NCBI GenBank assembly: GCA_002221725.1
Contig: NJFT01000097.1
Coordinates: 1-64,000 of the forward strand
DNA length: 64,000 nucleotides
Reading direction: 5' to 3'
From: Scedosporium boydii
Lineage: Eukaryota > Ascomycota > Sordariomycetes > Microascales > Microascaceae
Position numbers and translations under genes: made by a program. Shown here piece by piece: positions 21,312-58,543 of the stretch; within the stretch, counting starts at the first letter, position 1; every line of letters starts with the position of its first letter. The notes under the pieces were generated by a model. That model was not told the origin of the DNA. It did no database searches and saw only the letters and a program-made list of their open reading frames with translations.

Positions 21312-21747
21312 TCGCACTCACACTCTCCCCCTCTCTCCGGCACATCTTGCCATCGTTCGCCTTGGCATCCACTTTTACCTTGGAACGCCTGTCAATCTTC
21401 AAGGAACATCTTCCTATCTTCCTTGGCCCTTTAACTACTTCGCCGGTATCCCTCTGTCCACGCGAGACTACCTGGAACCTGACGAGTCGGACCACGCCCC
21501 CGAAACCGGTGTCGCCTAAATACTTGGAAGCGGGAGCCCCCGTCGTCACTTTTCTTCATCTATCCGATATCCGAGAGAGGTATATATCCACGGTGACCTG
21601 GACAGCATTTCTAACGTGGACGGGCGTTGGCCAATATTACAAACCGGTTTCCCACGTCCCATCAACATCGGGTGGAGTTTTCATTACACGCAAATTTAAT
21701 AATTCATGGCCGGAACTCCGAAGCCTTTCTTTTTGCAATAGGAACAC

Positions 21748-34394: not shown

Positions 34395-36521
34395 TTATGA
34401 ATGATCTTGCGCGTCCTGTTCACCCTCAAAGACATCTCCCACGAGACCGTGGAACCCTCCTAGGCCAGCACCGAGGCTGGGGTGGTATAGGTTAAGATCA
34501 TTTCCTGCCTCAAAGGCAGGGCCGAAGCCAATGTCGTCTCCTTGAGGCAAGGGACGCCAGTCTTCAAGAAAAGCCGGTATGTCCTGGAAGCCCTGGGCAA
34601 AAGCTTGCTCAGGAAATGCGTGGACGTTGTCCTGTCCTCCGTAGTCAACTCCGTAGCTGCGGGGTTGTGACGGTGAGGCTCCGATGGGGTTTATGCTGTT
34701 GGGGCTGGGGCTAAAGTGGCTCGTTGCAGGAACAACCCGAGGGGTAGTGTGTCCAACGTGTGAGCCGGCGTTGCCATGTCCGCTGTAGCCGCTGCCCGAG
34801 CCTTGGAAGAACACAGGTGGGCCTACATCGGGACGCAAGTTGTAGCCCTGGTAGTGACTCGTTGGAGAAACTAGTTGAGACCCGGGGTGACCACTTGAGT
34901 GAGCTTCACTGGGGGGGTGGCGTGCTGCCTCCTGGCTGCCCGCCGGACGAGGATAAATATTGCCTTCAGACAAGACCTCGAAACCGGAACTCGACGCCGA
35001 CAGCGATGGGATCATAGCTAGGCTATGGTCCTGTACAGCGGAGACATCTTCCCGTCCTTGATCGAGTAGCTCCCGGGTATAGTTTTCGACCCCCTCCCAG
35101 ACATCACGGCGGACTGCTTGCATTTGGTCTTCGGCGACGGAGCCAAGGTGAGCCGAAAGGACTTGCTCAAGGCCGCCCTTCTCGATCCATCCCCTCAAGG
35201 CCAAATCAAGCACCTCGACGTGAATGTCGTCAACATAGGGCGTCGAGGGACGTGGCGTATTGGGAAATAGATGGTCCCAAAAACGGAACCACCGTTCCAC
35301 TTCGTTACCTCCCCGCATAAGTTCGTCGAGCCCGTCCCTCTGTGCCGTTGACATACCATCCAACGAGAATTCTCGCTGTTCACACTCCTCAGCCCGGATA
35401 TGGGCGTCCCAAAGAGCTTGCCGGGGAAAAACCTCGCCGCAGGTGGGGCAGTAGTGGGGACAATGGCAACGCAGCAGATGCTGCTTTACATAGTTAGTGC
35501 CTGTCAAGTTATGCCGAAATAAGCAGGCCTGGTACTGAACCCGGTCCAACCTATAGTAAGGACAGGCAAGGCGTCGTCCATTGGTCCCACGTGCCTCGTT
35601 CAAGCTTCCGGTACCACCACCACCATGTCCGCCGCCGCCGCCACTGCTGTTGCCGCCACCACCCGGTGTTCGTCCCGATCTACCACCGGCGCCGTCATCA
35701 TTGCGTCGATGACGCTTATTGGCGCCTCGCTGGTTCTCAACATCATCGGCGCTCTCCTGCCGACTAGACTTACGACTATTGCTGACATTAGCACCCGCCG
35801 GAGGGCGGGTCTGGTACAGTGACACGGCAACAATGTCAGTACTCTCGGAGACGACCGAAGGGGCGTTATTTTGCCAACGTCCGGCGTCGGTGCCGAATGA
35901 CGGGTGATAACGGACGATGACCGGGGGCATCGAAAGAGAGAAATTGATGTGGCCCTCATGAGGGAGATTGCGAGTCAATGAGGCCTTGCCGTACGGATCT
36001 GCGGAAGGCTCGTGTCCTTGAAGAACCGGTTTCAGTGCCACTAGAATGGAATCTTTTGGATTGAGCGTGATCGCCTCGGCGTGGAGAGGCTTTCCGATGT
36101 GGGGGTTGTAGTTATTGAGCTCCTGGTTAAGAGTGGCGAGAGTCACCCGAAGGGGACTCGGATGAGCGACGTGATACGGTACAAGAGACGAAGGACCGAC
36201 TACCGATGTCTCGACATTCTCGAAAGTTTGATGGCTGGCATTGTTCGCCCGTGCTTGCGGATACTTCGGGCCCGGTCTCGCCTTTACTTCGATCTGGGCT
36301 TCGAACGGAGGCACTGGTGTATACTCCGTCACGTCTCGAATCGCGATACTCTCCTCCGAGGATGTGGGCTCAGAGGCTTTGAAAGGGGAGACCGGAGAAT
36401 GTTGTTTCCGGCTACTCCCTCGGATACCACGGATTTTTTTCTTGAATGGTGACAGGAACTTCGTTGCCTTCAAGATTTGAGGGAAAGAAGACCTCTTGGG
36501 AAGGTTTACCTGGGCCGACAT
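34395..36521 (-). CDS. Atypical zinc-finger protein, paralogue 1
   Basis: A single uninterrupted frame of 708 residues. The N-terminus is basic (SPFKKKIRGIRGSSRK) and followed by a moderately ordered region to about 235, then a Gly-rich, charged linker (a run of Gly near 287-303). The zinc-finger module is at 320-380: Cys320, Cys333, His348, His353, Cys358, Cys361, His374, Cys380, after which come DGMSTAQRDGLDEL and the WFRFWDHLFPNTP motif. The C-terminal third is Ser/Pro/Gly/Gln-rich and probably disordered. The same module recurs in three other genes of this window. It resembles a widespread fungal C2H2-like family (typically RFACPF/Y...KxHLxRxH...CPxCxxxF...H...C). DNA or protein binding is inferred only. 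It is head-to-head with paralogue 2 across 3.7 kb. Confidence 0.88.
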   Translation of the reverse strand: MSAQVNLPKRSSFPQILKATKFLSPFKKKIRGIRGSSRKQHSPVSPFKASEPTSSEESIAIRDVTEYTPVPPFEAQIEVKARPGPKYPQARANNASHQTFENVETSVVGPSSLVPYHVAHPSPLRVTLATLNQELNNYNPHIGKPLHAEAITLNPKDSILVALKPVLQGHEPSADPYGKASLTRNLPHEGHINFSLSMPPVIVRYHPSFGTDAGRWQNNAPSVVSESTDIVAVSLYQTRPPAGANVSNSRKSSRQESADDVENQRGANKRHRRNDDGAGGRSGRTPGGGGNSSGGGGGHGGGGTGSLNEARGTNGRRLACPYYRLDRVQYQACLFRHNLTGTNYVKQHLLRCHCPHYCPTCGEVFPRQALWDAHIRAEECEQREFSLDGMSTAQRDGLDELMRGGNEVERWFRFWDHLFPNTPRPSTPYVDDIHVEVLDLALRGWIEKGGLEQVLSAHLGSVAEDQMQAVRRDVWEGVENYTRELLDQGREDVSAVQDHSLAMIPSLSASSSGFEVLSEGNIYPRPAGSQEAARHPPSEAHSSGHPGSQLVSPTSHYQGYNLRPDVGPPVFFQGSGSGYSGHGNAGSHVGHTTPRVVPATSHFSPSPNSINPIGASPSQPRSYGVDYGGQDNVHAFPEQAFAQGFQDIPAFLEDWRPLPQGDDIGFGPAFEAGNDLNLYHPSLGAGLGGFHGLVGDVFEGEQDAQDHS

Positions 36522-39500
36522 GCCGATTTCGCCAGGCTACTCGTGGGAGGTAAGAGGGAGGAGGGAGAGGGGAGTTGTCCTATTCTGTCACGGAGAGAGG
36601 AGGCTTTACAGGTATACAAATTGACGACATCATTTGGAACAACAAGGGCGAAAAGGGAAAAAGACAAAACGACACGGGTCGTATACGATGAAGAAGATAT
36701 TGGATGGGCCTGGAGAGGAGTGGTTTGAAAGATATTCTTTAGGATTATGTCGCCTTTTTTGAACTTTCTACGGGGGCAGGCTGGCAAGAGCACAAAGTTG
36801 CAAACTCGCGAAACTCGGCACAGATGGGATGCAGATGGTTTATTGGCCGAACAGCTCCGTAGACTTTTGGAGCGAAGCACCCCCCATCGAAGAGTACGCA
36901 ACTGGGCAACAAGTCTTATCGACTTGACGAACATACCAGCGCCAACGGAACTACCAAAGTATTAAGGACTCTTCTTACAGATCAATCTTGAAGGAGAGAA
37001 ATAGAAAAACGATCATTCGACATAAAACAGGGCTTGATTGGGGATTAGGCGTTAGGCAGATTTTTCTTAGGGGACAAACGGACACCCTGGTCAAGGATTT
37101 GAGAGGTGAGTGGCTGAGGGGAGGGGAACACCAACACGGCCCATGGAGGGGGGATTGACAGGTTGGCTTGGGAGCGGAACAAGTGGCTTTCGGTGTCTTC
37201 TATCAAGAAACAGGGCGCGGTCCTTGGGGTTGACCGGACAGAAAGACACGCTAGGCGAAGCTCACCCTTCTCGGGTCGCCTATTCTTCTGGTGGGGAGGG
37301 GGATTGAGTTCTTTTCCCTCAGGCATCGATGACGACGTCGTCGTCGGCGGGCGTTGCCGCACAATCGTGGGACGAACCAAGAGAGAGAATAAAGAAAAAG
37401 CGGTCTCGGCTTCGGGGAAATACCTTGAATGGCGCCCCAAGACCGAGGCTAGGAGCTCTTCGTCCTCGTGTGAAACAAGTATGCCGGCGACGGAGGCTTA
37501 GATGCCCATTGTCGCATTGCCGTTGCCATTATTTTTTTAGTCAACGTTAATACCGGGGGAAGCCGAGCCAAATAAAAGAGGTTGGATCAGTGGGCATCAT
37601 TGAGTAGAAGGGGGGCAACAGCAGAGAGAAGAAAAGGGTGGGAAGAAAGAGATGATTAGAGACCAGGGGCATTTTGGGGCCTGATGCGGGCGCGTTCGTA
37701 CAACTGCGCAGCGCTGAGACGCCTAGACGGATGAGACTGGAAGGCATTGGGGAACCCCCTCGTCCGCCTTACCTATGTGGCGATATATTCGTCAGCGCGA
37801 TGTCCCAGGTTGAGAGATTGATGGAGAAAATCGATCGTAAAACGGGCCGAGGAAGAGGAGGTCGACGTTTGTTTCAAACTGGTTTGTGAATAGAGTGGGA
37901 AAGAAGCCAGGTTATCATATTCGAGAAATGCGGGAATTTTTCGATGAGACAAACATGGCAGTGACCCTTACGGACGACTGGGAAGAGGAGAGAAAGGGAG
38001 AGAGAATGGGGGGTTGAGGGAATGGAAAAAAGGGGAGCAGGCTGTGAGAATCGAGTTGTTTGGAGTTCTTTCCGTTCTCAGCTCCGGAGCCTGCCGCCTG
38101 CCTCAATCGTTTCCCCCTAGTGTGTGCCCCACCTGAGCTTGGACGATTTGAGCTGAGGGCGGGGTGGGGTCAAACTACAAACTACCTCATACTTGACGTA
38201 CGTCAATACAAGTCAAAGTACGACACACGAAGTAGTTTATTTGAACGGAGCCAAGGGTAAGGCGAGGGTTTAAAGCAAAGGGTAGGTGTGGCAGGTGTCA
38301 CCTCGAATGCGTACCCTGGTACATGCCTAGCGAAGTCTACAAAGTAATAGTGGCTTTTTGACAGCCTGGTGATTGGAAAGTACGAAGTCCCTTCTTTGTC
38401 CAAGAAGGGCCCGGCGAGGAATGTGAGGGTGTGCGGTTCTCTTTCCGCGGGCATAGTCCCGGGGCATTACTTCCACGTCAATACGAAGTAAGTACGTAAA
38501 CTACTTCCAAATCAACCCATCCTAAAATGGTGATCTCAGTATCTTGTAAGTGCTGAGCCCTTTCCAAAAAATTAAATGTAAATACTTGTTGTACGTGTGG
38601 TCGAGGACGAGGTGTCTGGTCCCATCCTATGAAGATAAGAAGAGCTTGTACCCCTCGACTAATTTTGAAGGAGGGAAGGCATGACAGGCTGTGCTTCTCG
38701 ACTTGACTCTCCCGATGCTCGGGGCTTGTACTTTAATAATGTCCAGAACAAGTAATAACTATCGACCCAAAGAAGAGTCCCTGCGCCACGCAACGCACCT
38801 CGTACAATTGTACAATTGGGACCGTTATGCATCAATGACGGCAGTTTGCATCAACGCTTGCCTCGAGCACGCTTTCCACCGCGGATACGGGGTAACGTCA
38901 GGCTTCTCAGCTCTGTCGTGAAGTGTACAAGAGTACGTTACTTATTGGGGTCGGAAAGGCACATGTTACACGTTACATGCAACTTGCAATTTGCAACTGC
39001 TACTTAGAAAGGAAAGAGCTGGGATCGTAGAAATTTATTGATGTTCCTTCCTCGTGCAGCCAGTGGCAGAAGCAGAAGCAACAGGCTGCGTCTCCTTCTT
39101 CCAACAATACGATTGTAAATTTTCGAGGCATCGCCAACATCATCATTGTCCTTATTATACCATTATCATCACCATCGTCGACAGCATTGTTGATATCTTC
39201 GAAGAACATCAAATGCGACTCCTTCTCTCAATTCCAGTCCTCTAGCTTCAGATGATCAGTTTCGTCCCAAGATCTCGTCCTCAGGTGTGTCCTTGCGACT
39301 CGCCTCGACAGCAGTCCCTGGACTCGCGATTCGGAGCATTCTTGTGCCGAACCCGGACCAAACGTTGGACAGAGAGGGCTACAGTAGCAACAAGACGGGG
39401 GACGTGCTGAGGCCAGGGAACAGCAGACGGGGATGGGGGAAGGGACGGGTGATGGGCACATCTATCCAATCAATGGTTGACGCCGTCGTCATCGTCATCG

Positions 39501-40266
39501 CCAATCGGGCTCCAACTCCTGCAGCAATCTCCCCGCCAAGTCCACGAACACACACACTTGTGCATCCGGCTGCAGGGAATGAATAACCCTCGCAGCTTTC
39601 CAAGCCTTCGGACCCATCAATCCTTGACCACAACCATTTGGCGTTTTTCTCTTGTCTGTCCATCCCAGCCCTATGGGTCTTGCGGTACGAAGTATTGCGG
39701 AAACACTCATTGATCCACTAACGGAGTGCGTCGCCCTACGATCTTTTCCAACCCTCCACTCGGTTCAATGTTCCCAACCAACCGCCCCCAATGCCACACC
39801 AGCTTGCACAAGTGTGCGAAAGCTGCCACCCCGCCTCGCGTGCTGTCCGGTTTCTTACTCTGCTCACCCTGGCGAACGCAACCCATCATCTCGCCTGTTT
39901 TACCCATTCCAAGTCTGGCGCATCCCGGCCTGCGACCGACCGTGGACCTTTTGAATTCCGATGTCTCCAATCTCGCCGGAATTTGATGAAACTGCCTGAT
40001 CGAAATGCTTCACAAACTTGGTGATTGCGGAAGGTCTATTAACACCTCCTTTTATCGTTTGTTCCTGAAGCGCCCTTCTTTCTTAGCTCAGCGAATATGG
40101 GGGGTGAAAGCAGCTCTTTATATTCCACTTGCGCACTTCGAGACGCCTTGTATTTCTCATCATTTCCTCACCAGGTTTGTCGAGTGCGATCGTGAACGAG
40201 TATATCCCGTTTCCTTAAACCCTTTCCAGTTGCCCGACACCCACATGTAGCCGTTCCTCCCCCATC
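36522..40266. promoter_or_regulatory. 3.7-kb divergent intergenic region between two zinc-finger paralogues
   Basis: Separates the starts of paralogue 1 (minus, 36521) and paralogue 2 (plus, 40267), so it should contain both promoters. It holds two exact TACGAAGTA copies (38482 and 39686) and near copies at 38227 and 38381. Short frames in 36506-37501 lack family features and splice logic. No gene called. Confidence 0.55.
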
Positions 40267-42189
40267 ATGAAGCCGCACCTTAGTCCCCTAACCGTGGCGG
40301 ACTTGACGGCACCTTCTGTTATCCACCTCAACCCGATATCCGACTCGAAAGCTTCCGTTGATGCCCCCCTGACAATGCCCCATACGCCGGATTCAAGCGG
40401 CACCGCAAGAGGCCCAACCCCCTCCTATACTGCAGACTCGCCTGCCAACCTTGACCACCTACAGTCCCCACAATCGTCGGCAGACACTATCTCGAGCGAC
40501 GACGAGATTTTTGCCGGATTCCTCCGGCTAACGACCAAATCCCCCGATGGCCAACTGATCAACAATCCCTTCCAAGCTCCCCTTTGCCTCCAGTCTGCAC
40601 CACCAACACCTCCAATACCGTGCGCCAGTGCTGGTGCTAGTGCCGGTACTTTCCACCCTGTCCAGAACACATTGAGTCCCGAAAATATTGACTCTGGTGG
40701 GGACTCGGCGACGGACTCGGACTTGAATAGGATGAGTGCATCATACACATTTGGCCCACCGCGAAGCAGAAAAACGGGCTCCCGGCGAGCCCAACCACCG
40801 AAACCAACTCGATCAAAGAAAGATGTGCGTCCCGAAAGGAGGCACTCGCACACGACCGGTACCGACCCGCTCGGTCTCTCTACTTCTGTACCCATCTTCT
40901 CCGAACCGCCACTGGACATGAACATCGCCTCCAGCCAAATACAACCAATGCCATCCGATACAGGCGATAGTACACCCCGCAAAGCGCCCACCGCCATTCG
41001 ATCGTACACCCATCCACCAACTCCCGCACCATCTGGGAATATATCGTCGTCAGTTTCAACTTTAGAGAAATGCAACCTCGAACAGTCCGGTCTGCTCCTA
41101 TCGCACATGGCCGCCTGGTCGACGCTTCCTCGCAACACGGGTACTTCCTCCTCTGTTGCATCGACCTCCTCCACCGTGCAGTCTTCAAGAGCCACCACCT
41201 GGCCTGTCGCCGCGAACAGAGGAGGAGGGGGTTGGGGGGCTTCAGTGACGGCGCCGCGAAAGAAGAGGGCAGGCCCTCCAGAAGGAGACAGTGATGAGGA
41301 TGACTGTCGCAAGAGTGTTAAGAGAGTGGATAACAGCTCCCAGGACGGTCTGCGACGATTTGCCTGCCCGTTCTATAAATTAGACCCCTTCAAATATACT
41401 GCGTGCCTCAAGTTCGACCTACGTCGCATCAAGGACGTGAAACAGCACATATACCGGAAACATAGCCGGCCTCGATGTTACTGCCCCATCTGCTATGCCG
41501 TCTTCAAGAATGATGAATTACGGGACCAACACGTTCGAAGAAGGACCGATTGCCAGCCGAGAGAGAGAGAACCCAGCTACTTGGAAGGAATATCAGAAGA
41601 CCAGAAGAGGGAGCTCATGAAGAGGCTCGACCGAAAGGATACGTTTGAGCGGCAGTGGGTGCGTATCTGGGAGACTGTCTTCCCAGGGAATACTCCGCCG
41701 GAGTCCGTCTGGCTCGGCACCCAACTCGAGGAAACCATTTCGCTGATGCGCTTGACGTGGGAGCGCACCGGTCAAGGAATCGTGTCATCCATTCTGGCCG
41801 AGGAACAGGCATCGGCCCCGGGTCACCTTGCGGGTCCTTCCAGCGGCACCGACGCTGTTACCACCAGCACGAACATGGATCTGAAAGGCTTGGTCATCAG
41901 GACCGTGACTCAAGTTTTGAATCGCTTCCAGACGGAGAGTCGCATCAAGATGAGCCAGGACAAGCCGTCTCCTCCCTCCCTGGCGCACTCTCCCGAGTCA
42001 ACTTCTCCCGTGTTCTCCCCGGATCCGGGGTTCTGGGCGGCGGCCGAGGAACCCGAGTGTCTGCAGCAGATATCCGTTCCGTCGGTGAAGCCGGAAACCG
42101 AGGAGGACTTTCTTGGTGAAGGGTTGGATTACGGGGGTTCGTGGCTTAATGTGTCACTTGGGATGGAAGACAGCAAGGCGCCTTTTTAA
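40267..42189 (+). CDS. Atypical zinc-finger protein, paralogue 2
   Basis: One exon, 640 residues, start context ATCATG with A at -3. The first 340 residues are Ser/Thr/Pro-rich and low in order, ending in a basic patch (APRKKRAGPP, 329-338). The zinc-finger module follows: Cys367, Cys380, His394, His399, Cys406, Cys409, His422, Cys429, starting RRFACPFYKLDPFKY. Next come YLEGISEDQKRELMKRL and WVRIWETVFPGNTPPES, matching the other paralogues. The C-terminus is acidic and Ser/Pro-rich with several KPETEEDF-like acidic stretches that could serve as an activation region (inference). Likely nuclear because of the basic patch. It is divergent from paralogue 1 and convergent with the HET fusion gene. 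Confidence 0.88.
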   Translation: MKPHLSPLTVADLTAPSVIHLNPISDSKASVDAPLTMPHTPDSSGTARGPTPSYTADSPANLDHLQSPQSSADTISSDDEIFAGFLRLTTKSPDGQLINNPFQAPLCLQSAPPTPPIPCASAGASAGTFHPVQNTLSPENIDSGGDSATDSDLNRMSASYTFGPPRSRKTGSRRAQPPKPTRSKKDVRPERRHSHTTGTDPLGLSTSVPIFSEPPLDMNIASSQIQPMPSDTGDSTPRKAPTAIRSYTHPPTPAPSGNISSSVSTLEKCNLEQSGLLLSHMAAWSTLPRNTGTSSSVASTSSTVQSSRATTWPVAANRGGGGWGASVTAPRKKRAGPPEGDSDEDDCRKSVKRVDNSSQDGLRRFACPFYKLDPFKYTACLKFDLRRIKDVKQHIYRKHSRPRCYCPICYAVFKNDELRDQHVRRRTDCQPREREPSYLEGISEDQKRELMKRLDRKDTFERQWVRIWETVFPGNTPPESVWLGTQLEETISLMRLTWERTGQGIVSSILAEEQASAPGHLAGPSSGTDAVTTSTNMDLKGLVIRTVTQVLNRFQTESRIKMSQDKPSPPSLAHSPESTSPVFSPDPGFWAAAEEPECLQQISVPSVKPETEEDFLGEGLDYGGSWLNVSLGMEDSKAPF

Positions 42190-42658
42190 CATGGACATTT
42201 TGTTGAATACGAATCTCTCGACGGCCATTTACATCACCTATTTAACAAGTGATTTGATGCCACACTTTTCATTTAACTCTCCTCTCCCATGGTGTGTTTA
42301 TTACATATTATTGACTTGTTGCGGCTGAATTGCTGGAATTTTTTCTGTGGCTATTCATCCCCGTCCTTTTCAGACTGCAGATATCGGGAGACCTCCTAGG
42401 TCGACCGTCTTCCCCGCGAACAGCACGCACCCTTGTTCCTTGAGGCTGAGAATGTCGGAATTTGGCAATTTTGAGAATGGCAGTGTCTGTAGATATAAAT
42501 ACAACTAAATAGATGTAGGCGGGAAGTGGATGGGCTGCCTGGACACTAAGCGCCAATATCAACGCATGATATTCTCACCGGAAACCCGGTTTTATGCCAA
42601 TGGCTTTGATGGCGAGAGTGACAGGTTTTAAAATGCTACAGATATTCTTTTTTTTTCC

Positions 42659-42699
42659 TTTTTTTTTTTTTTTTTTTTTTTTTTTGGTGGGGGGGGGGA
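42659..42699. repeat. T27 tract followed by G-run
   Basis: Twenty-seven consecutive T, then GGTGGGGGGGGGG, then normal sequence. Tract length may be uncertain in assembly. Confidence 0.85.
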
Positions 42700-42892
42700 T
42701 CTGGGTAAACATAGTTAGCATGCGTAACAACGTAAAATATAAACTTCATCTTCACGACATCCATTTCCAGGAGAGATCAGGTTCAGACATCAGTCATTAC
42801 TTATTTTTAATTATTTTAGGCCCATTAGCACCGTTTCCTACAATATCAAGATGACCATGGGAGGGTTCTTAGAACGTTGAGAAATCATGGTT

Positions 42893-43250
42893 GTGAGAAA
42901 AGCGAAAAGACGAAGAAAGAAGTGAAACCATAGGAAAAAGGAGAAGAAGGAGGGGGAAAAAAGAGAAAAGAGAAGAGAGAAGAGAGAAGAGAAGAAAAAG
43001 GAGTAAGAGAGAGGAAATAGAGGAGAAATAGGCAGGCAGCTACCTGCGCGGGACAAGATGTAGGGGAAAAGAAAAGAAATAGATAAAACGAACGAGGATA
43101 AATGAAAAAAAAAAAAAAAAAAAGTAGAAAGAAGAGAAGCCCAAGAAGAGAAGGGGAAGAAAAAAAAGGGAGAAGAGAAGAAAAGAAGCGGAAAGGGGAG
43201 AAGAGAAAGAAGAGAAAGAAGAGAAACAGAAACAGGAAGAGACAATAAGT
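42893..43250. repeat. Long polypurine (GA-rich) tract
   Basis: Nearly all A and G on the plus strand, with imperfect GAGAAGA units, an A19 run near 43106-43124 and only a short interruption around 43030-43060. Confidence 0.8.
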
Positions 43251-43427
43251 AATAAGATTGATGTCTTGTGGACATCACTCATGGTACCAGGAGGGCTAGG
43301 TCTTTAACGTTTGGGTTCACCACCTGGAGCTCACTGCTGTGAACGCCAAGTGAGAAGAATCCTGGGGTGCAAGATCAGCACGAAGTGGCTGACCTCGCCC
43401 CCAACAAAAGGTTGTGCGGAAACATAT

Positions 43428-46061
43428 TTAATCTGCCCCATTATCTGCCATGCCCGCCGACATGGCAGATTGGGTTGGCGTTGGACCTCCCTCCCTTTGG
43501 TCTTGGGAGGGAGTCCTATCGTCAATACCAGCTCGGTCGGGAGCCGGCGCAGGCTGTCGGTTCTGCGGGATCCACTTGTTTATGAGTGGCCACACGAGGG
43601 ATCCGACGTTGAATGGGGCCCGAGTCGTAGGTCCTGGGTTCACCGAGACCTGCTTCCCAGAAACGTATGAAAAGGGCTTGTCCTGGCCGTTGAAAATCTC
43701 ATCAATGAGATGGTCGAGGACAAGCGAATAGAGAGCCGCAAGGCTGCGTTCCTCGTCGGGCATATCCCACGAGAGCTTGTTCTTGGACTCGAGGAAGCCG
43801 GAGACGATGAGCTGGCCCGTTTCAGCCCAAAAGTCGCGAGCGAGACTGATCTGGAGACCAACCTCGCCAGGAAGCCACGGTGACGAGGGCGGCGATGTAT
43901 CGGGATAGAGGATATCCCACATAGCATACCATGCCTTCACCGCTGGCACCGACGCGGGAACGTTAGAAATCAGCCTCAACTTCTCCTCGGAGATCCCTTC
44001 GTAAGTCGGCGGTCGGTCTCTGAGCTCGCAGTTGCGCTGGACAATGTGTGCATCTCGATCAGAGGCGCCGCTGAACTTCACGTAGCAAACGGGACAGTAC
44101 AAAGGCAGCCGATGTGCAGTGAGATGTTTTTGAAGATCACGGAGTGTCAGTAATTGGCAACGCGTGAAGCAACGCTGACAGCGATTCGGTTCAACGAGGC
44201 TCATGGGGCACGCGAAGCGAGGCGTTAAAGGGCGCGTTCGAGGGTCCATCTTCCAGGCAGTAAATTCGCGTAAGGCAAGTTGAACAATTTCGGGTATTAA
44301 ACCTCGAAATTCATGGTTGGGCTCCAAGATTGGAGGTTTTTCAGTGAGCTCATCCTCCGGCAGGGTGTGATAGTCATCGCTGTCTCCAGTCTTGTCCTCC
44401 ACGAGTCCACAGGCGGCCCCAGTGTTTCCAGCAAGCAGGTTAGCGGTCTCCAGGTTACGAACAGGCCATCCGGGAGTAGTGGTGATTACCATTTTTGCTG
44501 TATTCTCCTGAGGGGTGGCAAGCGGCGTTTTCACCCGTTTAACCCTTGGAGCGGGAGCATCACAAGGATCGTGTCGTCTCTTTCTCCGGCAATAGGAAAT
44601 GTCGAGGATGGATCCAGAGCCAAGACTGCTTGCCCGAGGGGAGAATACACAGGATCCGGAGGCTATGGTTGACGGTGCCCTAGAGACGGTATCATCATCA
44701 TTGACATCACCCTCATCACCACAATGCGCGGGGGCAGGGTCGCCGTTGTTACCAGAGAATGGGATGGGGATGTTGGCTTCTTGAGCCGGGGTTTGTTGAA
44801 GCGGGGCATTGGAGGTTGGTCGGTCGACCGGAGCGGGTGGAGGGCCCTTGGAGACCGGAGGGAAGGCCGGGAATCGCAGGACATTCGAGGCGGCCATAGA
44901 CGACTTGAGGTCAATGTCTCTCTTAGCGGTCACGCTTCCAATCGGAGCGTTCAACATGGCCTCAGTGGGCAGAGAACCAGCTGCCCCAACAGCAGGCCGG
45001 ACGTAGCAATCCTCCAATCGGAACATGGCCAAGACTGCGTGGCGGTGAGGTGTCCCATCATGGCCTCCAAGGTCCAGCAAGACGCCTCGGCCGCGGGCTT
45101 GAGGATTTTGTAAGTAGTTGCCTCGGACGCGCATACCTTTGTTAGTGAATGTGATTTCGCCTTTGAAAACCAGAGGATTACACCAGGTGGGCGGACACGA
45201 TATGAAGCGGCGGAATTCGGCAGGAGAGTTTGCCAAGAGCCCGCGCCAGGGTCGAGTATCGGAAGGTTGGGCGTCCCAGACCAGGAGGGAGAGGTCCTGT
45301 GTGTCCTTGAGTATCGCCTCTTGGAGGCGCAAGAAAGCGTTCGAACCCTCACCATAGATGACTGGCAGAAAGACATTGAAGATTCCCATGAGGGAATATG
45401 CCCTGTCCTCCTCCCGGAAGGCGCGTCTTTTTGCGGCCCAGGACATGCGCTTTGCTAAGGAGACCTCTGAAATGAGAGAGCTATCGCATAGGACGTCAGC
45501 GACAATATGAGTGATACGAGAAAGAATTCCCTTTAATGGCTCAGATTTTTTGCAGCCGCGGAAGTTCCAATCCTGGTCATAGAAGCGGACGGAAGATGGG
45601 GCCAGCAGTTCCTGGAGAGTCCAGCACCTGGAAAACCACGAGCAGCGACTCCAGACTGCCACATCATCATCCTCCTCCTCTTCTCTGTCTGAGTGCTGCT
45701 TAACGTAATTTGTGCTAGGAGGCAGGTCGTCGAGGTGGGCAAAGAGGTGCTCACAACGACTCATCCAGGCGAAAGCCGAGTTCGCAGCCTCGCTCACCTC
45801 GGCAGTAGAGGACTGGTCGACACATATGGTGTAAATCCAGAGATAGTCGATGTTGGTCTCCCTGGCGACCTGGCATGCTTTCTTCACAAAAGAAAATGAG
45901 TCCAGAGTAAGGGCTCTCTCGCGATCATTGGCAAACTCGGAATAGGAAAGTTGGCCTTCCCGCCAGCGGTGGGACAGGACGGCGTATGGCGGTCGCCGCC
46001 CGTTATCTGCGTCTGGGGGGAAGGAATGTAGTTCCAAGGTACCCGTGTGCAGAAGGCGCAT
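43428..46061 (-). CDS. HET-domain protein fused to the atypical zinc-finger module (paralogue 3)
   Basis: I choose the ATG at 46061 (GTCACCATG, MRLLHTGTLELHSF), which gives 877 residues and the usual HET N-terminus; the frame extends 55 codons further upstream without family resemblance. HET motifs: AVLSHRW (27-33), YLWIYTICVDQ (73-83) and WFSRCWTLQELLAP (142-155). HET domains drive heterokaryon incompatibility and cell death in filamentous fungi. The middle is Pro/Ser-rich with a basic patch (PRVKRVKTPL). The zinc module spans Cys618-Cys678 (C-x12-C-x14-H-x3-H-x5-C-x2-C-x12-H-x5-C), then YEGISEEKLRL and WYAMWDILYPDTSPPSSPW. The second HET motif normally reads LW(I/V)D; here Asp is Tyr. No intron needed. 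Function of the fusion is inferred: the zinc module could be the sensing or targeting part. Confidence 0.9.
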   Translation of the reverse strand: MRLLHTGTLELHSFPPDADNGRRPPYAVLSHRWREGQLSYSEFANDRERALTLDSFSFVKKACQVARETNIDYLWIYTICVDQSSTAEVSEAANSAFAWMSRCEHLFAHLDDLPPSTNYVKQHSDREEEEDDDVAVWSRCSWFSRCWTLQELLAPSSVRFYDQDWNFRGCKKSEPLKGILSRITHIVADVLCDSSLISEVSLAKRMSWAAKRRAFREEDRAYSLMGIFNVFLPVIYGEGSNAFLRLQEAILKDTQDLSLLVWDAQPSDTRPWRGLLANSPAEFRRFISCPPTWCNPLVFKGEITFTNKGMRVRGNYLQNPQARGRGVLLDLGGHDGTPHRHAVLAMFRLEDCYVRPAVGAAGSLPTEAMLNAPIGSVTAKRDIDLKSSMAASNVLRFPAFPPVSKGPPPAPVDRPTSNAPLQQTPAQEANIPIPFSGNNGDPAPAHCGDEGDVNDDDTVSRAPSTIASGSCVFSPRASSLGSGSILDISYCRRKRRHDPCDAPAPRVKRVKTPLATPQENTAKMVITTTPGWPVRNLETANLLAGNTGAACGLVEDKTGDSDDYHTLPEDELTEKPPILEPNHEFRGLIPEIVQLALREFTAWKMDPRTRPLTPRFACPMSLVEPNRCQRCFTRCQLLTLRDLQKHLTAHRLPLYCPVCYVKFSGASDRDAHIVQRNCELRDRPPTYEGISEEKLRLISNVPASVPAVKAWYAMWDILYPDTSPPSSPWLPGEVGLQISLARDFWAETGQLIVSGFLESKNKLSWDMPDEERSLAALYSLVLDHLIDEIFNGQDKPFSYVSGKQVSVNPGPTTRAPFNVGSLVWPLINKWIPQNRQPAPAPDRAGIDDRTPSQDQREGGPTPTQSAMSAGMADNGAD

Positions 46062-50163: not shown

Positions 50164-50498
50164 ACCGAGTGCGATGAGACGCGCATCGCATCGCCAATTC
50201 GTTTCATGCTTTTTTGATTAACTAGAGTGGTTCGTAACGGAGGGTCCCTAGTGTTTCTGCGGTCTTGAAGGATTTCTCGTCTCTTGCATCTTGCACAGCC
50301 ACCATGAGTGCTGAAGCTGCATGAGGTGTCACACCTCCATACCACTTTGCACGGCTGCGCAACTTTTAAGCGTCTCCGTCACTTTATTTTTGCTCATCCT
50401 TTTCTTTTAATTTTGAATAAAGGATTCCTTGACCGAGTTCCTTCTTGTGTTTGTTTTAGACTCTCTGTTGCCTTCGGACGCATCTATAGATTCTCTCG
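50164..50498. promoter_or_regulatory. Short bidirectional promoter region
   Basis: 335 bases between the start of the repeat protein (minus, 50163) and the start proposed for the CorA-like gene (plus, 50499). It should carry both core promoters. Confidence 0.45.
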
Positions 50499-52188
50499 AT
50501 GGCTACTTTAGCCCCGACCAGTCAACCTCGCCCTTCATCGCCAGGGCCGCGGAGAATTACTCGCCCTTCAGAGTGGCCGTTGGATCCTGATTGTTTCGAT
50601 CCTGAATTGTCCGTTTGATACATCTGATGTCTCCCGTTGCTGTTACACCCGTGCCTGTACCTGTGCCATGCCTGTCTATACCTAAGGACTGACTCTAGCT
50701 TGTAGAGATGATGAACATGATATATCCTACGCGTTCCACGAGTTTGAAAAGGACCAGCTGTCCAAGACCACTTCGTTATACTCGCTGTTCGCCTCTCGCA
50801 ATTGGTCCAGTAGGTCCTCTGGTTTAGAGGCGTTTCGTCCATATTCTGTTGCCAACAACCTGCACTAAATGCATCCATAGTTACTCGCGAGTCCACCTTG
50901 AATGAGAAAGAATCTGTCGAACTATTTTCTTCTGTAAGTTCATTAAAATCTCGAATGCATGCAACCCAATCTAATGAGTCCAAGTAGGCACCAGCACACT
51001 CAGATTTCCAGCTCTTGTACGAAAACAGCTTTGCACATATCTTCTTCCAGATAGACAGACAAAGAAACTAACACGTTGCCCAACACGCAAAGTTCTGTAA
51101 CCCGCAATCTAACAAGAGATCCCAAAATCTCCCCAGATGACCGACGCCGCCTACACATCACTCCCGCCTCCTTCCGCGCCCTCATGTCCACCTACCACGT
51201 CCCTGTCTCACTCATGGCGGCCCTCTCACGACCCTACATGGTCTGCGGCACGGGCTTCCGTAAGCTTTCCGACGGCGTCTCGGACCACTGGTGCCATCTA
51301 CCAGTGCGCGTTGTCGTGAAGTGCCTGGTCGATGCGAAAGAGCACACCAAAAGCACAGCGGGGAGTAACCAGATGGATCCTTTTCACTATATCCATCTTT
51401 CTGGTGCGAAGGCCGATATTCGCGGGTCCCATATCGGGCTCTACGTTCGGAGGGACTTGAAGGCGAAGAGGATGAGCGTGATTGTTGTGAATTTGCTTGA
51501 TGGGCGGTTTAAGGACTTGATTGAGGAGCCGTTGGTGAGGGTAAAGGCGGCACTGACGAGGAAGAGGAACACGGGGAAGAGGATGGGTTCGTTTTGGGTG
51601 CACTTGATTTATATGTCGAGTGCGTTGAGGTGGTGGAATAATGTGTTGCTGTGTTTTAACCAGCAACTTGTCATGCATGCAAGTCTTTCTCCCCCTCTTA
51701 ACGAGGCAAAGCTATTTCGTTTTCTTTTTTTTTTTTTTTTTTTTTTTTTCCTCTTCTTCTTTTCTGCTACTAATATCCTAGTACAATATAGGAGAAACAC
51801 CTTCAGCAAGAAATCGCAAACGAAACATCCGCCTTCTCCGACGGAAGCAAGGACATGAACAAAGCCCTCCACATCATGGCTGCTCACCTTCACCGGTACA
51901 AGTCTGAACTCGGCCGGCTAGGCTTCATCCTATCCGACCTCCTCTCCCGTCGGCTAGATATGGACGGCGACGATTATGCGTCTAGGGATGGCAATAATGG
52001 CGAGGGTCCTTCTTCCAGTAGCGCCGCCGAGTCCGAGAAGGGAAGGATACGGATTGAGCAGCTGCAGTCGCAGCTCAAGGCTATCACAGATTTCTCGGAT
52101 GAGATGGAGCGGAAGGTTCAGAATATTCTCACCCTGGTAAATAATTTCCCCGGTCATAGCTCGAAAAGTAACTGGCACTGAGAGAGAG

Positions 52189-52228
<40 letters not shown>

Positions 52229-52869
52229 GGAGGGAGGGAGAGCAAGTTACACTATAGGCATTTTAACTGACACGAGAGGCAAACACTTCGTTTAGCTTTT
52301 CAACCAAATCCAGGTAACCAACGACAAAACGCTACAGGCTATCCTGAGAGCAGCCCAAACCGATGCGAAGCTCTCTCAGAAAGTAGCCCTGCAGTCTCAC
52401 GAGCTGACCATCAGCATGAAGAACGACAGTATCGCCATGAAGACGGTTCGGAACCATTTCCTCTCCTTCCAAACCTCCTCTACATGGTAAATCGCTAATC
52501 TTATTTTGGAAACATTAGATTGCTATCTTGACCATGTTATTCCTGCCAGGGACATCATTTGCGGTATGTACACAAAAGTTGCTTTGAACACAAAGTTGAA
52601 GATCCGTGCTGCATTCAGCCTGGACTGACACCACGTAAAACACGCAGGCTGTTCTGGCCATGCCCTTCTTCGATGACAACGAGTACCTAGGCGAACCATC
52701 AAAGGTTTGGATCTGGGTTGTCTTGACGATCGTGTCAACGGTCGTTGCGTTCTGGGGCTTTTTCCACGTCACGAATCGCCAGGAGAGGTCCATGGAGGAG
52801 AAGCGGGCTTGTAGTACGGATGATGTCAGTACGGACCGCGCTGACAATGGGCTTACGTTGGTGGCGTAG
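50499..52869 (+). CDS. CorA-like membrane protein (Mg2+ transporter-like fold)
   Basis: Nine exons fit phase: 50499-50608, 50706-50809, 50881-50933, 50988-51016, 51117-51678, 51792-52136, 52296-52445, 52519-52563, 52648-52869, for 539 residues. The 3' half is secure: NQMDPFHYIHLSGAKADIRG, an amphipathic helical stretch (NKALHIMAAHLHRYKSELGR), the conserved VALQSHELTISMKNDSIAMK segment, then two membrane helices (IAILTMLFLPGTSFAAVLA and VWIWVVLTIVSTVVAFWGF). This matches fungal CorA-like proteins; the canonical GMN signature after the first helix is absent, as in many of them, so magnesium transport is not certain. The first four exons are provisional (donor GTCCGT at 50609 is weak). Intron 51679-51791 begins GC rather than GT, and 52446-52518 begins GTTCGG. 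Confidence 0.78.
51723..51750. repeat. Poly-T tract inside a GC-AG intron
   Basis: About 24 T within intron 51679-51791 of the CorA-like gene. Confidence 0.85.
52180..52241. repeat. (GA)n microsatellite inside an intron
   Basis: GA dinucleotides degrading to GGGA units, within intron 52137-52295 of the CorA-like gene. Confidence 0.85.
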
Positions 52870-52973
52870 AATGAAGTGATCAACGAGTAACGGATGGGAG
52901 AGCAGTATAGAAGCCATAATATTATCCGCTATCTCACAAGTTTCCCAAACCAAAATCACAAAGTAACACTTCC

Positions 52974-55643
52974 TTAAGAAGACGATTCAAAAGTACCCAT
53001 AAGCTCATCATACAAACCCTTCGCCTCTTCCTCCCCCAACCCCCTAACCTTCACCACTCCCTCAACCATAGCTGAAGTCTTCATAATTTCCTCAAACATC
53101 TCCCAAGCACTCAACCCAGGTGCCTTCACGGCAGTCCTATACAACGCGTGCAAAAAGAGACCGACCACCCGGTCCACTCCGGCGAGCAACCCGTTCTGCA
53201 AGGCGCCAAACTCCTCGGCTCGCTGCATGATTCCGTAGCTCTGCTCGCTCAGGAGCGCCGTCTCAGCCAACGACGCGACGGACACGGAGAGAATGGGTTT
53301 CCTATGTTCGATGTCAATGCCGGAGTCCGGTGGCGGACTGGGACTCTTTTCTTCCTGCCCCAGTCGCCGCTGCTGCTGCAGTTGTTCCCAGAGGATGTTT
53401 CCGAAGATCATGGAGAGGACGGCGGTATCGGGCGTGCTCTTAACGGGGATCGACGTACGCGCGCGATAGAACTCCTCGACGAGGAGGAACAGAAAACGGC
53501 GCAGGATGGCGAGTTCGCGGAGTTGTCGCCGGACGCCAGCGTTTTCTGCCGCGGCTAGGAGGACGATGAAGCCGGGGAGGGGGTACCACATGAGTGGCTG
53601 GCTCGGCGAGTGGGTTTCGTCCGTGAATGACTCGTTCAGGACGTAGGTCAAGGGCCAGAGCGGCGCCTTGGCGTCCGGCTGTGAGAAGGACTCGGAGAGT
53701 TCCTTTAGGACGGGAATAGCGTGGAGTAGATCTCTGACCGCCCAGTCGATGGCTGACACGATAGTGGCGGCGGTAGCGACGGTAGCGACGCCCGCCTTTT
53801 CCGACGCAGCAGCTACGAAGCGGGGTCGTGCTGTGAGGAGAACAGATAGCAGAACCATGGGCAAATCTCCTTCGCTAAAGCGCAGGCTAAAAATCTTGTC
53901 GAGGGCGTCGTTGATGCTCGCCTTGTTCTCGGCGGATCGCACCAGAGGAATCGCCGCGATGATCGTCTCTTTCGGATCCATAGATGATGCCGTCCTTACG
54001 GCAAAAGCGGAGCACGGGTCACAGCAAAGAGTGGAAGACAGGACGTCCGTTTCATGAAAGTTGCCCATGGCAAACGGGAACGCAAGTCGGGTGCGGCTTC
54101 CTGGGGGAGGGAAGCCAACAGTGGAGGGCGACGCCGGAACGTCTCGGAAGAGGAATGCCATTCTCATTTCTCTGCCGCCGCAAATTGGACAGTTTCCCCT
54201 GAATGCGCCCCCAGTGGATTGGAAGCCCGGAGTATACAGCAACCGGCTGATCTGAGGGTCGCGGATGCTGTCCTCCCAAGGTTTGTAGGATTCCACGTAT
54301 GGCGCGTAGTATTGAGGCCGCTCTTTGAGAGGAGCAGCGGGCGGGGTTGGCGCCGAAACACAAGATTGAGCTGATGGTGTATTGAACGCGTACTGAGGAG
54401 TGTACCGACGCGTTTGCGCAATGCTGGCGGACACGGGGCTACACAGCGCAGGACTATGGTTGAAATTCATATTTGACCACGCCGATGCACTGTCAATGAC
54501 TCCTTGACGCTCTTGAGCATGGTCTTCGTTTCTCTGAATTTCCCTCACGAACTGCTTCATGTTATCCAGATATGCCTGGCGCAGTTTCTGTCTCGATTGC
54601 TCCGGCGGCGATCTTCCCCTTCGGAGCAAGTCAATCACCTCAGTAAAAATGCTCCGAGCTCTGTGGCGTAGGTCATCCCGAGGCCTTTGGAGTGGGTCGT
54701 CGACGGTGATGGCTTGCTGCTGAATCCAGTGCTGGAATGCGCCTTGCTGGTTCCGGGTTCTTGAAGTCATTACTACGGTCGAGATGTTATCTTCGTTGGC
54801 GAGGATGGACGAGACTTTTTCCCGCGAGAGCCGGTTGCTAAACAAGTCGTCGAGATTGATGACCAGGTCGCCCTGGAGCGCGACCTCATTGGCGTTGAGT
54901 TTCTGACGAGGTGGGAGCTGTATATTGACAAAGTCGGAGGGGTTTACCAGGGGCAGAGAGTCCCATTTAGAGGATTTGTCAAAGACGGGAGGCGGCTGGC
55001 CCTTGAGAAGATTCTTGAAAGCACCTCTGGTCTGGAAGAGCCGGATCTCACCACTGTCGGTATTGCAAAACAGAAAGGCGCAGTTAGGGACGACGGCGAA
55101 GACGCTGATTCCAACAGAGATGTCGCATCCACCCGGACCATCAGCCGGGTCCCCGAAAATGACGATAACACAGTTTGTCCCGTGGACGCCCTTCTCCGCA
55201 AGGTTCGTGGCAAATTCCGCCCTCGCCATGTCGGTGATGAGCCCGTCCGTCATCAGGAACCATAGATCCGAGTCGAGAATAGCATCCCTGCAGGGCCTGC
55301 TCTTGAGGAGCACTCCAGGATCCGTGCCTCCCTCGGATTCAAGCGTATTCACCTGAGATACGCCACGGATGCGGTATGTGGTATTGTCCCAGGGCAGGAT
55401 CTTTGCGTCGAAGCGGGGACGTGGATTAATGAGCTCTGACATGGCAGTTATGAAGCGCTTTTCCGCGAGGAGCGTCGGGCCCATGGTGCTTAATGATACA
55501 TCAACTGCGAAGGCAACTTTGGCCTGGGGAAATGGGTTCCCCTGCTGTTGCGAAGATGTTGCCGTCCATTCTGCTGCCGATTCCGAAGGAGTCGACGGCG
55601 TCGGAGGGGTGTTAATCCCTTGGGATGAGCTGGCCGGTGGCAT
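52974..55643 (-). CDS. von Willebrand A-domain protein with cysteine cluster
   Basis: One exon, 889 residues, A at -3 before the ATG. Residues about 42-200 form a vWA domain: MIDAS-like DVSLS at 48-52, Thr107 in EGGTDP, and Asp133 in LMTDG, the three elements that coordinate a metal ion. No signal peptide precedes it, so an intracellular role is likely. Residues 331-390 look helical and charged. A cysteine group, Cys485-x2-Cys488 (NCPICGG) and Cys540/541/544 (LCCDPC), may bind zinc. The C-terminal half (about 550-889) is mainly helical with a probable helical-bundle character. I recall similar uncharacterised proteins in other ascomycetes but no assigned function. It ends 104 bases from the convergent CorA-like gene. 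Confidence 0.85.
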   Translation of the reverse strand: MPPASSSQGINTPPTPSTPSESAAEWTATSSQQQGNPFPQAKVAFAVDVSLSTMGPTLLAEKRFITAMSELINPRPRFDAKILPWDNTTYRIRGVSQVNTLESEGGTDPGVLLKSRPCRDAILDSDLWFLMTDGLITDMARAEFATNLAEKGVHGTNCVIVIFGDPADGPGGCDISVGISVFAVVPNCAFLFCNTDSGEIRLFQTRGAFKNLLKGQPPPVFDKSSKWDSLPLVNPSDFVNIQLPPRQKLNANEVALQGDLVINLDDLFSNRLSREKVSSILANEDNISTVVMTSRTRNQQGAFQHWIQQQAITVDDPLQRPRDDLRHRARSIFTEVIDLLRRGRSPPEQSRQKLRQAYLDNMKQFVREIQRNEDHAQERQGVIDSASAWSNMNFNHSPALCSPVSASIAQTRRYTPQYAFNTPSAQSCVSAPTPPAAPLKERPQYYAPYVESYKPWEDSIRDPQISRLLYTPGFQSTGGAFRGNCPICGGREMRMAFLFRDVPASPSTVGFPPPGSRTRLAFPFAMGNFHETDVLSSTLCCDPCSAFAVRTASSMDPKETIIAAIPLVRSAENKASINDALDKIFSLRFSEGDLPMVLLSVLLTARPRFVAAASEKAGVATVATAATIVSAIDWAVRDLLHAIPVLKELSESFSQPDAKAPLWPLTYVLNESFTDETHSPSQPLMWYPLPGFIVLLAAAENAGVRRQLRELAILRRFLFLLVEEFYRARTSIPVKSTPDTAVLSMIFGNILWEQLQQQRRLGQEEKSPSPPPDSGIDIEHRKPILSVSVASLAETALLSEQSYGIMQRAEEFGALQNGLLAGVDRVVGLFLHALYRTAVKAPGLSAWEMFEEIMKTSAMVEGVVKVRGLGEEEAKGLYDELMGTFESSS

Positions 55644-57169
55644 GTTCTGTGCACCTCGACGTCAGCTTCAATCACTCCAACATCGATCGCCAGTCAGTAT
55701 AATATATTACATACCTTCGTCCTTCCTCTGTACTTTTCGAAAACACGATACATCTTGTTTGATCTTTGGTCATTGACACGATATATATCCCAAAATTTGG
55801 CTTTTAATTCCATTAAACTGTTGCCTCCCGGTCAGAGACTAAATCTGTCCTTTATTCTCTGTTTCTCAACCAGGCAGCCAATTCACCTCTTTTCAATGTG
55901 GAAGCCTGGCCTGTAGCAGGTTTCCGATGACGCTGCGCCCCCACCACCAAACGTTGGTTCGCCTCGCCTTTTTTTCCAGTTCTTTGTCGGAATCATCATG
56001 CAGAGTGATACGGGTGGAATGTGTGATTGGTTCACAAAATAGGAAATAGGAGTTAAGAAACAAGTCGCGATGAAGCCAGCTTGGAGCATCGGCAGGGCCT
56101 CCGTCGCAATCGGGAACGGAGTGTTCTCTCTTCGATGGGCCGAAAAGATGATCCCAGCAGTCGGTGCTTGTTCTGCAGGGTCGACGGGTTTCCACCAACG
56201 CGGCGTATTGAGAGACAGCACAGGACAAGGCGAACAGCGTCCCTCATCCCTCACCCTTAGATCTCGGAGGCTAGTAGTAGAGTGAGGTCGATGCGTGATA
56301 CGGAGTGGAGTGGTCGTGTCCCTCTAAGACACAACAACTCGGGTCTGGCTTTTGCTCAGATGCAGCAACACGTAAAGTCCATCTGACTGATAAATTCTCT
56401 AAGGATAGTATTAGACATTATGAGTACTACCTAACTTCATTCTCACCTCTCTCTGACCGGTAGTTTAGCGATGTGATCATTGATTCTTGGCTCCTTCCCA
56501 CGTTCTATGTTCCTGGTTCCTGGACATGTTCCGCATTCTACCGTCGCAACTTCCTTCCTTTGACGCCGTCTAGTTCCTTCCGTAGACTCCACCTGGCCTA
56601 TACAGTTGTTCCTGGCTTCCTCGCTCCAGTTCACCTTCCCTCCAGAACCATGGGCCTCTATCGCTTGATCGATACCTTCCGTTCTGCCTCGGTCGTTCCT
56701 ACAAAATCTACTTGACCAATGTATTTCTAGTTGCCTCGCCCCTGCCGTCACTGTATCCAACCCTGTCCCTGTATTCGTACCCGTACCTGACCTTGTACCT
56801 GCACCTTTCCTTTGCACCCTCCGATTCATCCATTTGTACTTTATACTCCGTCCGTGTACGAAATATCTGAAGCATCTACACCCTTCAAAATTCAGCCCTT
56901 TAAAATTCAGCCCTTCAACATCCCCTAGCGCGAGGGCAGTTCGCGCGAGGCTAACGGCTTAAATCAATGCCGAACCCCCCGCTGGCGACTTCATTCTAGT
57001 TGCGGTCTCAGTTTCATCTCCACCGCCCGCTCATCCACTAGAAGCCCAGAAGCCACGGTCTTCCTTCTTATGCTCTACTCAGCCGTCCCAAAGGTGCTGT
57101 CCAGTTACCAGTTCCAAGTTAGCCAAGCATCCATCGCTGAAGAATGATTCTGCAAAAGAACTTACCCAA
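55644..57169. other. Intergenic, promoter side of the vWA gene
   Basis: Contains direct repeats of the type (A)AAATTCAGCCCTT at 56885-56920 and degenerate CCTGTACCTG units near 56740-56812. No gene is supported. Confidence 0.5.
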
Positions 57170-58543
57170 CTACCCCTCCAGGCTTCTTTGAAAGACGTAG
57201 GCAAGGAGGTGCTTGAGAACCTCATTGCCTAGAGTCTCCACTGCTTCCTCGTGGTCCTCAGAAGCGATAGAAGACGAAGACCCGAGCCCATCGGATTCCA
57301 TCAAGCGCTGATCGGCGAGGAGCCTTTTCGTGGCTTCGTATCCCTGCACCTTCCAGAACTCCTTCACCAAGGAAATGAGCCGGGATACCTGAGGCGGGAG
57401 ATGCGGGTCAAGGATCGGAACATAAGCCCCAAACACTATGTTCCAGATGGCTCTCCAGTGCGCTGTAGCACTCAGGTCTCCGGGTATCGTCGACAACAGA
57501 AGCTTCTGCTCCTGGCTAATACCGTGGAATTCGACAATATCTTTCTTCTCACACGTCCGCTTTAGGATATGGACCTCCCTCTGCGAAGCAAGCGGGAAAG
57601 TGTCGAAGCACACTGGACAGTAGAGCGGTTGCGTGTGAACCTGGCCGATGTGGCGCTTCACGTCTGAGACTCTCTCGGCGAGCCCGTCGACGAGGCAGTT
57701 GAGGTGATTTTGGGGATCGCTCAGAAGGAAAGGACAGACAAATGGGAGACATGTCTGTATGTTTGCGCCATCTTTTAGCCAGGCATTTCTAAGCCACTGC
57801 ATGCATGAAGCCCGAGCTTGCTCGTACACCGGCTGGAAGATATCACTCCAAGATCGACAGCTAGGAGCTATGCTGGAGTTCTCCACTGCTTTCGTAGGTG
57901 CATGCAGATGCAGTTCATCGTAATCATGGAGACTGATGGTTCTCACGGCGTCCAAAGAACGCCTGGCGTCGGGGCGAACGTTCCAGTCTTGGGTTTCTCT
58001 ACCCGATAACATATGAAGGCGAGCGTTCCACGGAGGCATGGACATTCGCCTGGGAGGAGTACAGGTTCGGTAGTTGTAGTATCGAGGACCTGCGCTGGCC
58101 CCGAGTCGATAATACCCCTGCATGACATGATGATGATGCCGATGGGTACCTCGATGGGGAGATGGAGAAGCTGACCTCGAGACTCTTTCGAACAGCAACG
58201 GTGGGCTTGCGTACTGCCTGCCCGCTCCTGACTTGTCGTTCTGTGTCCGGAGGAAGGTATGGGATCGCGCGGCTTTGGCGCCTGGCGTGTCGGCTCGGCT
58301 GATTTTGTGAACGAGTGGCCAGGAACGAGTCTCCCGAACGCCGCCGCCGCCACCGCCGCCTTCATCAGGATTGCGGTAGGAGACACCGTCCATTTGGCCA
58401 CCGCGGGTATCCATCTTGCAGTCTGTTTGGTGGTGTTGATGATGTTGCGGTGTTGTTTTGGATGCGGAGCCACTTGTTCTCAATGAGAGCATGCTCTCGA
58501 ACTGACGGGAAAGGCCATCTCTGTCATCATAGGGAGCCCGCAT
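57170..58543 (-). CDS. Atypical zinc-finger protein, paralogue 4
   Basis: One exon, 457 residues, strong start context (ATCACAATG). The N-terminal 230 residues are Ser/Arg/His-rich with a Gly run (62-68) and appear disordered. The zinc module is Cys270, Cys283, His298, His303, Cys309, Cys312, His325, Cys331, reading PFVCPFLLSDPQNHLNC and LYCPVCFDTF; it is followed by FHGISQEQKLLLSTI and HWRAIWNIVFGAYVP, as in the other paralogues, and by a helical C-terminus that ends HLLAYVFQRSLEG. This is the shortest of the four and lies about 11 kb from the nearest other copy. Binding partner unknown. Confidence 0.87.
   Translation of the reverse strand: MRAPYDDRDGLSRQFESMLSLRTSGSASKTTPQHHQHHQTDCKMDTRGGQMDGVSYRNPDEGGGGGGGVRETRSWPLVHKISRADTPGAKAARSHTFLRTQNDKSGAGRQYASPPLLFERVSRSASPSPHRGTHRHHHHVMQGYYRLGASAGPRYYNYRTCTPPRRMSMPPWNARLHMLSGRETQDWNVRPDARRSLDAVRTISLHDYDELHLHAPTKAVENSSIAPSCRSWSDIFQPVYEQARASCMQWLRNAWLKDGANIQTCLPFVCPFLLSDPQNHLNCLVDGLAERVSDVKRHIGQVHTQPLYCPVCFDTFPLASQREVHILKRTCEKKDIVEFHGISQEQKLLLSTIPGDLSATAHWRAIWNIVFGAYVPILDPHLPPQVSRLISLVKEFWKVQGYEATKRLLADQRLMESDGLGSSSSIASEDHEEAVETLGNEVLKHLLAYVFQRSLEG

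Follow-up and report, generated by a model that had tools for sequence, protein, structure and literature searches.

Background

One of the closest described counterparts of the proteins analysed here is BH of the Podospora anserina het-B system (PMC10890737), a non-NLR protein in which an N-terminal HET domain is followed by a distinct C-terminal domain, and for which that paper describes the C-terminal lectin fold of the HET protein as determining recognition specificity. The product of one of our genes, w43, is built alike but carries a zinc module where BH has its lectin fold. A second likeness is to the zinc-finger NLRs described in PMC12258605, where C2H2 fingers were found in 34 Sordariales NLRs and proposed as sensors, and where 52 of the 57 zinc-finger NLRs carry their fingers C-terminally. 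Such an arrangement resembles the NACHT, ankyrin repeats and module found at one locus, C49, while w43 differs by having no nucleotide-binding domain. According to the same account only treble-clef fingers, not C2H2 fingers, adjoin canonical repeats, whereas the C49 module follows ankyrin repeats. In two big surveys of fungal NLRs (PMC4986451 and PMC9815663) word searches of the main text gave no mention of zinc or C2H2.

Four genes of the window share one module

The window, i.e. the whole 64-kb stretch of DNA analysed here, lies on contig C97 and contains the genes w34, w40, w43 and w57, each of which was recovered as one uninterrupted frame where the sequence-only reading had placed it (Table 1). 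When all six frames were searched with a regular expression for the eight-ligand zinc pattern proposed for these genes, exactly four places in the window matched, all in the four genes, and adding the G[IMV][ST] and W motifs to the expression still left four. The pattern with these motifs matched nowhere in 100 block-wise trinucleotide shuffles of the window, against four places in the real one, and a chance pattern was rejected.

Table 1. Position of the module genes, their domains and neighbouring features in the window
Feature	Position	Strand	Remarks
Gene w34	34395..36521	(-)	708 aa; module mid-protein, basic cluster upstream of module
Module of w34	35145..35576	(-)	residues 316-459
Gene w40	40267..42189	(+)	640 aa; its module finds most relatives; basic cluster upstream
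Module of w40	41353..41796	(+)	residues 363-510; structure predicted
Gene w43	43428..46061	(-)	877 aa; HET domain and C-terminal module
HET domain (PF06985) of w43	45609..45986	(-)	residues 26-151; 34.4 bits, cut-off 22.5
Module of w43	43791..44219	(-)	residues 615-757; conserved block ~581-795
Gene w57	57170..58543	(-)	457 aa; C-terminal module, no HET
Module of w57	57317..57745	(-)	residues 267-409
Fungal transcription factor	21742..24177	(+)	Fungal_trans_2 in 22462-24177; Zn2Cys6-like stretch ahead (by eye)
FEN1/Rad27-like gene	31326..32541	(-)	immediately left of the block (by eye)
Open reading frame	52974..55643	(-)	889 residues, uninterrupted; no Pfam match at E <= 1; no second genomic copy found
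PARG_cat_microb (PF10021) protein	62147..63241	(-)	right of the block; 30 bits

In blastp comparisons the four whole proteins match each other in the module, with E values from 1.6e-8 to 8.9e-28, and in the pairs w57-w43 and w57-w40 the similarity extends further, behind the module. After removal of the profile-defined module no window pair was found at E < 0.2 (blastp), in agreement with the earlier claim that the proteins barely resemble each other elsewhere. By its PF06985 match above the curated cut-off, which the sequence-only reading had overlooked, w43 is a member of the HET family, and since this is its sole Pfam match at E <= 1, with no NACHT or NB-ARC found, it is not an NLR of the fungal type; no HET domain at E <= 1 was found by the Pfam scan in w34, w40 or w57, which thus fall outside the HET family.

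Ligands, charge and predicted fold of the module

The conserved unit exceeds the motif list first drawn up for it and covers about 145 residues in the profile and about 215 in w43. Site 1 consists of C-x12-C/H-x4-H and site 2 of C-x2-C/H-x5-C (C2HC). Among 92 modules the eight ligands are, in order, kept in 92, 92, 92, 90, 91, 91, 90 and 91, and 89 modules have C or H at all eight positions; the two commonest spacings, C-x12-C-x13-H-x4-H-x5 or x6-C-x2-C-x12-H-x5-C, account for 68 of these 89. The ligand pattern suggests that the module binds zinc, at two putative sites.

Structure prediction gave the w40 module as one confident compact domain (pLDDT blocks 85-98 over residues 11-160), and in this model the module would be a single globular domain with a double zinc-binding head and a helical tail bearing the GIS and W-W motifs. 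For full-length w43 the prediction is of low quality beyond the module (mean pLDDT 48.8), the alignment behind this model mixes two HET kinds, and its HET part was not used.

The description of the module as C2H2-like holds loosely, for finger 1 has an unusual C-x12-C and finger 2 is C2HC, not C2H2. Its weak likeness to the classical C2H2 finger (PF00096) lies in finger 2: w34 scores 16.6 of the 25.2 bits needed, the other three window proteins gave no match to this family, and when the module profile was run against PDB the matches were C2H2 DNA-binding fingers that fall on finger 2 (best E 0.0014). It differs from PF00096 by staying below the Pfam cut-off and by its long helical tail, and the classical C-x2-4-C / H-x3-5-H spacing is absent, with C-x12-C in site 1 and C as the last ligand of site 2. 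Fold searches at E <= 0.001 returned no match to the module, neither in PDB nor among predicted viral structures.

The PDB profile matches would fit a module that serves to bind DNA in a family of transcription factors not yet characterised, the fusions described below then bringing HET or NLR parts to chromatin. The net charge of the zinc part points the same way, being +3 or more in 82 of the 92 modules (median +6). So does a basic cluster that 54 of 88 proteins have no more than 60 residues upstream of the module, compared with a mean of 6.6% for stretches of 60 residues taken from other parts of these proteins; it suggests that many members are nuclear. The zinc parts of two window modules, however, are nearly uncharged (w34 +2, w57 0). 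Further points against DNA binding come from finger 2, where D is the commonest residue at w40 module positions 53, 55, 56 and 59, which by C2H2 numbering we take to be the classical reading positions, and where R is commonest at the usual core-leucine position (64/92). Acidic-aromatic tails, looked at as a sign of activation domains, are only weakly enriched (55/78 vs 41.2 in shuffles), and the missing fold match in PDB at the threshold used may also speak against a DNA-binding domain, a reading that we consider rather unlikely. Nucleic acid is suggested as ligand by the charge of the zinc part, classical DNA reading being opposed by the make-up of the finger 2 helix.

Relatives and catalogue status

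Searches of the window's own genome with w57, w40, w34 and two other members gave overlapping sets, each holding the four window genes, the exception being a short C69 exon query that recovered three of the four. A division of the four modules into different families, which was looked for in these searches, did not appear, and they belong to one family as had been proposed. Among public proteins the w40 module found 80, the w57 module 2 and the w43 module 2. The named relatives are Sordariomycetes as far as recognised (taxonomy was looked up for three), the closest ones including Lomentospora, Cephalotrichum and Parascedosporium, which makes a species of Microascaceae the probable source of the genome, and identity over the queried regions is 94% for a relative of w57 and 92% for a relative of w43. 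In one protein from Colletotrichum cuscutae (P0039) two modules are present, the first with a lower score (51.2 vs 117.3 bits).

P0005 of Cephalotrichum gorgonifer, a UniRef "C2H2-type domain-containing protein", has the same module (49% identity, with 92% of the query stretch covered); UniRef proteins of this type carry neither a function nor a name for the module, and P0005 shows no domain in the precomputed Pfam column. The module has no Pfam domain of its own and is uncatalogued. At E <= 0.01 PF24071 matches 7 and zf-C2H2_jaz 9 of 85 proteins, and the three PF24071 scores that were inspected fall below the cut-off of that family. The possibility that the module already is PF26176/PF26177 was set aside, the labels being found in the precomputed column of P0002 and on none of the other 83 proteins from the three module searches, while our own Pfam scan of P0002 returned neither. 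Because the labels are confined to P0002 and the scan was negative, it is more likely that they describe the extra N-terminal fingers of that protein. No description of the module was found in the open-access literature searched, and the name PTHR38166 had no match there. The family is real, clustered and old, and its module deserves a name and a Pfam entry.

Distribution in the genome and history

The genome of the window (42.9 Mb in 442 contigs) contains at least 19 module loci. Eight of these are uninterrupted frames, namely the four window genes and loci on C41, C195, C81 and C71 (the last without the second finger), and eleven are split, or apparently so, by an intron (C243, C69, C319, C62, C231, C36, C179, C255, C49, C50 and C131). 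Several loci gave weak matches when one protein served as query (E up to 0.23), yet reached E <= 2.1e-6 with a seven-sequence profile (68 loci); C131, a later find, comes from one search only (E 3.2e-6).

Four of the loci lie within 22 kb. When 19 points were scattered at random this was reproduced in 1 of 200,000 simulations, with 40 points in 13 and with 8 points in none of 200,000, so that module genes are not equally dense everywhere in the genome. The block might nevertheless be nothing out of the ordinary, a neutral remnant of gene duplications long past, its genes being functionally unrelated, as could be expected from proteins with nothing detectable in common outside the module and from the wider old group discussed below. 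The degree of clustering argues against such a leftover, although clustering alone does not prove a common function, and the high identity of the w57 and w43 relatives does so too; we find this explanation doubtful.

The tree, built from 91 modules, places w40 with P0003-P0006 and w43 with its relatives P0083 and P0084; w34 pairs with P0082, both on long branches, and P0001 is the sole companion of w57. A private clade of the four modules with P0001, P0083 and P0084 was rejected (62.9 log units, AU p 0.0001; long branches are present). A 12-module group that adds P0003-P0006 and P0082, additions among which P0005 (Cephalotrichum) and P0082 (Dactylonectria) alone have names, was not rejected (p 0.106), nor was one clade of w43 and w57 with their relatives (p 0.306). 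The local expansion suggested by the sequence-only reading thus finds no support in the form given, but an old expansion is possible, the wider group not being rejected. With the private clade rejected and the wider group not, the cluster is old or assembled and not recent. Recent tandem duplication was rejected since no window pair is alike beyond the module and the private clade fails.

Partner domains

As foreseen, one module is used in different architectures, with HET, NACHT/ankyrin, ankyrin and Clr5 partners. Most of the partner domains to which a name can be given are parts of fungal nonself recognition, which is new here, and the link to HET lifts the family above an anonymous zinc finger family. 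HET was found by Pfam in 19 of 85 scanned proteins, w43 included, and 66 were without it; in the genome of the window about 150 HET matches occur in all (152 counted; exons of one gene may count twice).

Two kinds of HET part were seen. The first is found in 14 proteins (P0007-P0015, P0017-P0020 and P0022), and the modules of these proteins make up a starred clade; the second, which is longer and starts near residue 1, is found in w43, P0083, P0084, P0068, P0072 and P0076 (by eye). The modules of the two kinds are in different parts of the tree, with unstarred forks between them; two or more HET-module fusions is the simple reading, and one old fusion with later losses is also conceivable. When w43 was compared with P0084 of Lomentospora, identity was 58% in the HET part, 66% in the part following it, 27% in the linker and 58% in the module; both ends of the protein are under constraint and the linker is not kept.

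At locus C49 NPHP3_N/NACHT, ankyrin repeats and the first half of the module are found in one open frame, seen as two pieces (L083 and L033) that overlap in the genome and share one reading frame. L083 contains NPHP3_N (134.5 bits) and NACHT (28.9 bits, cut-off 26.7) and L033 the ankyrin repeats, and with NACHT and C-terminal repeats C49 has the make-up of a fungal NLR. Its start may resemble an alpha/beta-hydrolase, judged by eye and from a sub-threshold PGAP1 match. The C255 module follows ankyrin repeats and the C36 module a Clr5 domain, on the same strand, and the C319 module follows a kinase-like piece below the Pfam cut-off (18.3 vs 31.7 bits), these three links being between neighbouring same-strand frames and not gene models. 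No Pfam partner was found in the frames of C231, C50, C69, C195, C131 and C41, and the C81 frame gave a sub-threshold finger match only.

That proteins without HET outnumber those with it would also be expected if the free protein were a real target of pathogens and the module an integrated decoy, a copy of such a cellular protein placed as bait on HET and NLR proteins, an idea that PMC12258605 takes up with regard to NLR kinases and zinc fingers. Fusions in more than one module lineage do not look like one recent capture, however, and the target would have to be one not known so far; we regard a decoy as improbable.

Possible role of the module

The reading that we prefer, at about even chances, is that of a C-terminal recognition or targeting module. 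It is favoured because the module stands C-terminally behind an effector or receptor core, because its partners belong to nonself recognition and because BH sets a precedent. In HET, NLR-like, ankyrin and Clr5 proteins the module would occupy the usual place of the ligand-reading part, and in w43 a module that has bound its ligand or a partner may switch or gather the N-terminal HET domain, the presumed trigger of cell death, in a manner similar to the het-B system, where specificity is set by the C-terminal lectin fold of BH. In w34, w40 and w57, which carry no HET, the same putative reader would be part of mostly unannotated and, for some members, probably nuclear proteins. Against a reader speak the many family members lacking HET, the absence of a basic cluster within 60 residues of the module in w43 and w57, the poor model of w43, the links at C36 and C255 being between neighbouring frames, the silence of the two NLR surveys on zinc and C2H2 in their main text, and the fact that the w43 module is about as conserved as its HET part, while the lectin fold is described as the more divergent part of BH.

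For the part by which cell-death and immune-receptor-like proteins are told what to recognise, the module makes a good candidate. As one such candidate part it is here described with its eight conserved ligands and its borders, recurring on HET parts and on or near NLR, ankyrin and Clr5 parts, and should it read a ligand, the question of what is sensed by some HET proteins becomes directly testable. A bolder proposal, which we hold only tentatively and think unlikely to be right, is that the module is a shared sensor of fungal nonself recognition swapped among HET, NLR, ankyrin and Clr5 proteins; the 34-59 kb block would then be a cluster of readers, one of them with a killing domain and its neighbours acting as regulators or partners.

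Two classes of gene structure

In nine of the ten split loci examined (L008, L016, L018, L020 and L034-L038) a GT-AG intron fits one common position, the K codon that immediately precedes the first zinc histidine, and always in phase 2. The script considered GT-AG introns only; C49 could not be placed and C131 is outside the ten loci. Three loci offered one intron candidate and the other six between two and eight, of which the candidate at the shared place was chosen. The shared intron is absent from all eight uninterrupted loci, the window class included, where it may possibly have been lost through retroposition; a gain in the split class is an alternative that can be envisaged. This intron-bearing sister class had escaped the sequence-only reading. 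Within the uninterrupted class, an in-frame deletion has removed the second finger from the module of one relative of w34 (L019, G000:C71:130695-130976), whose frame of 501 residues is still open.
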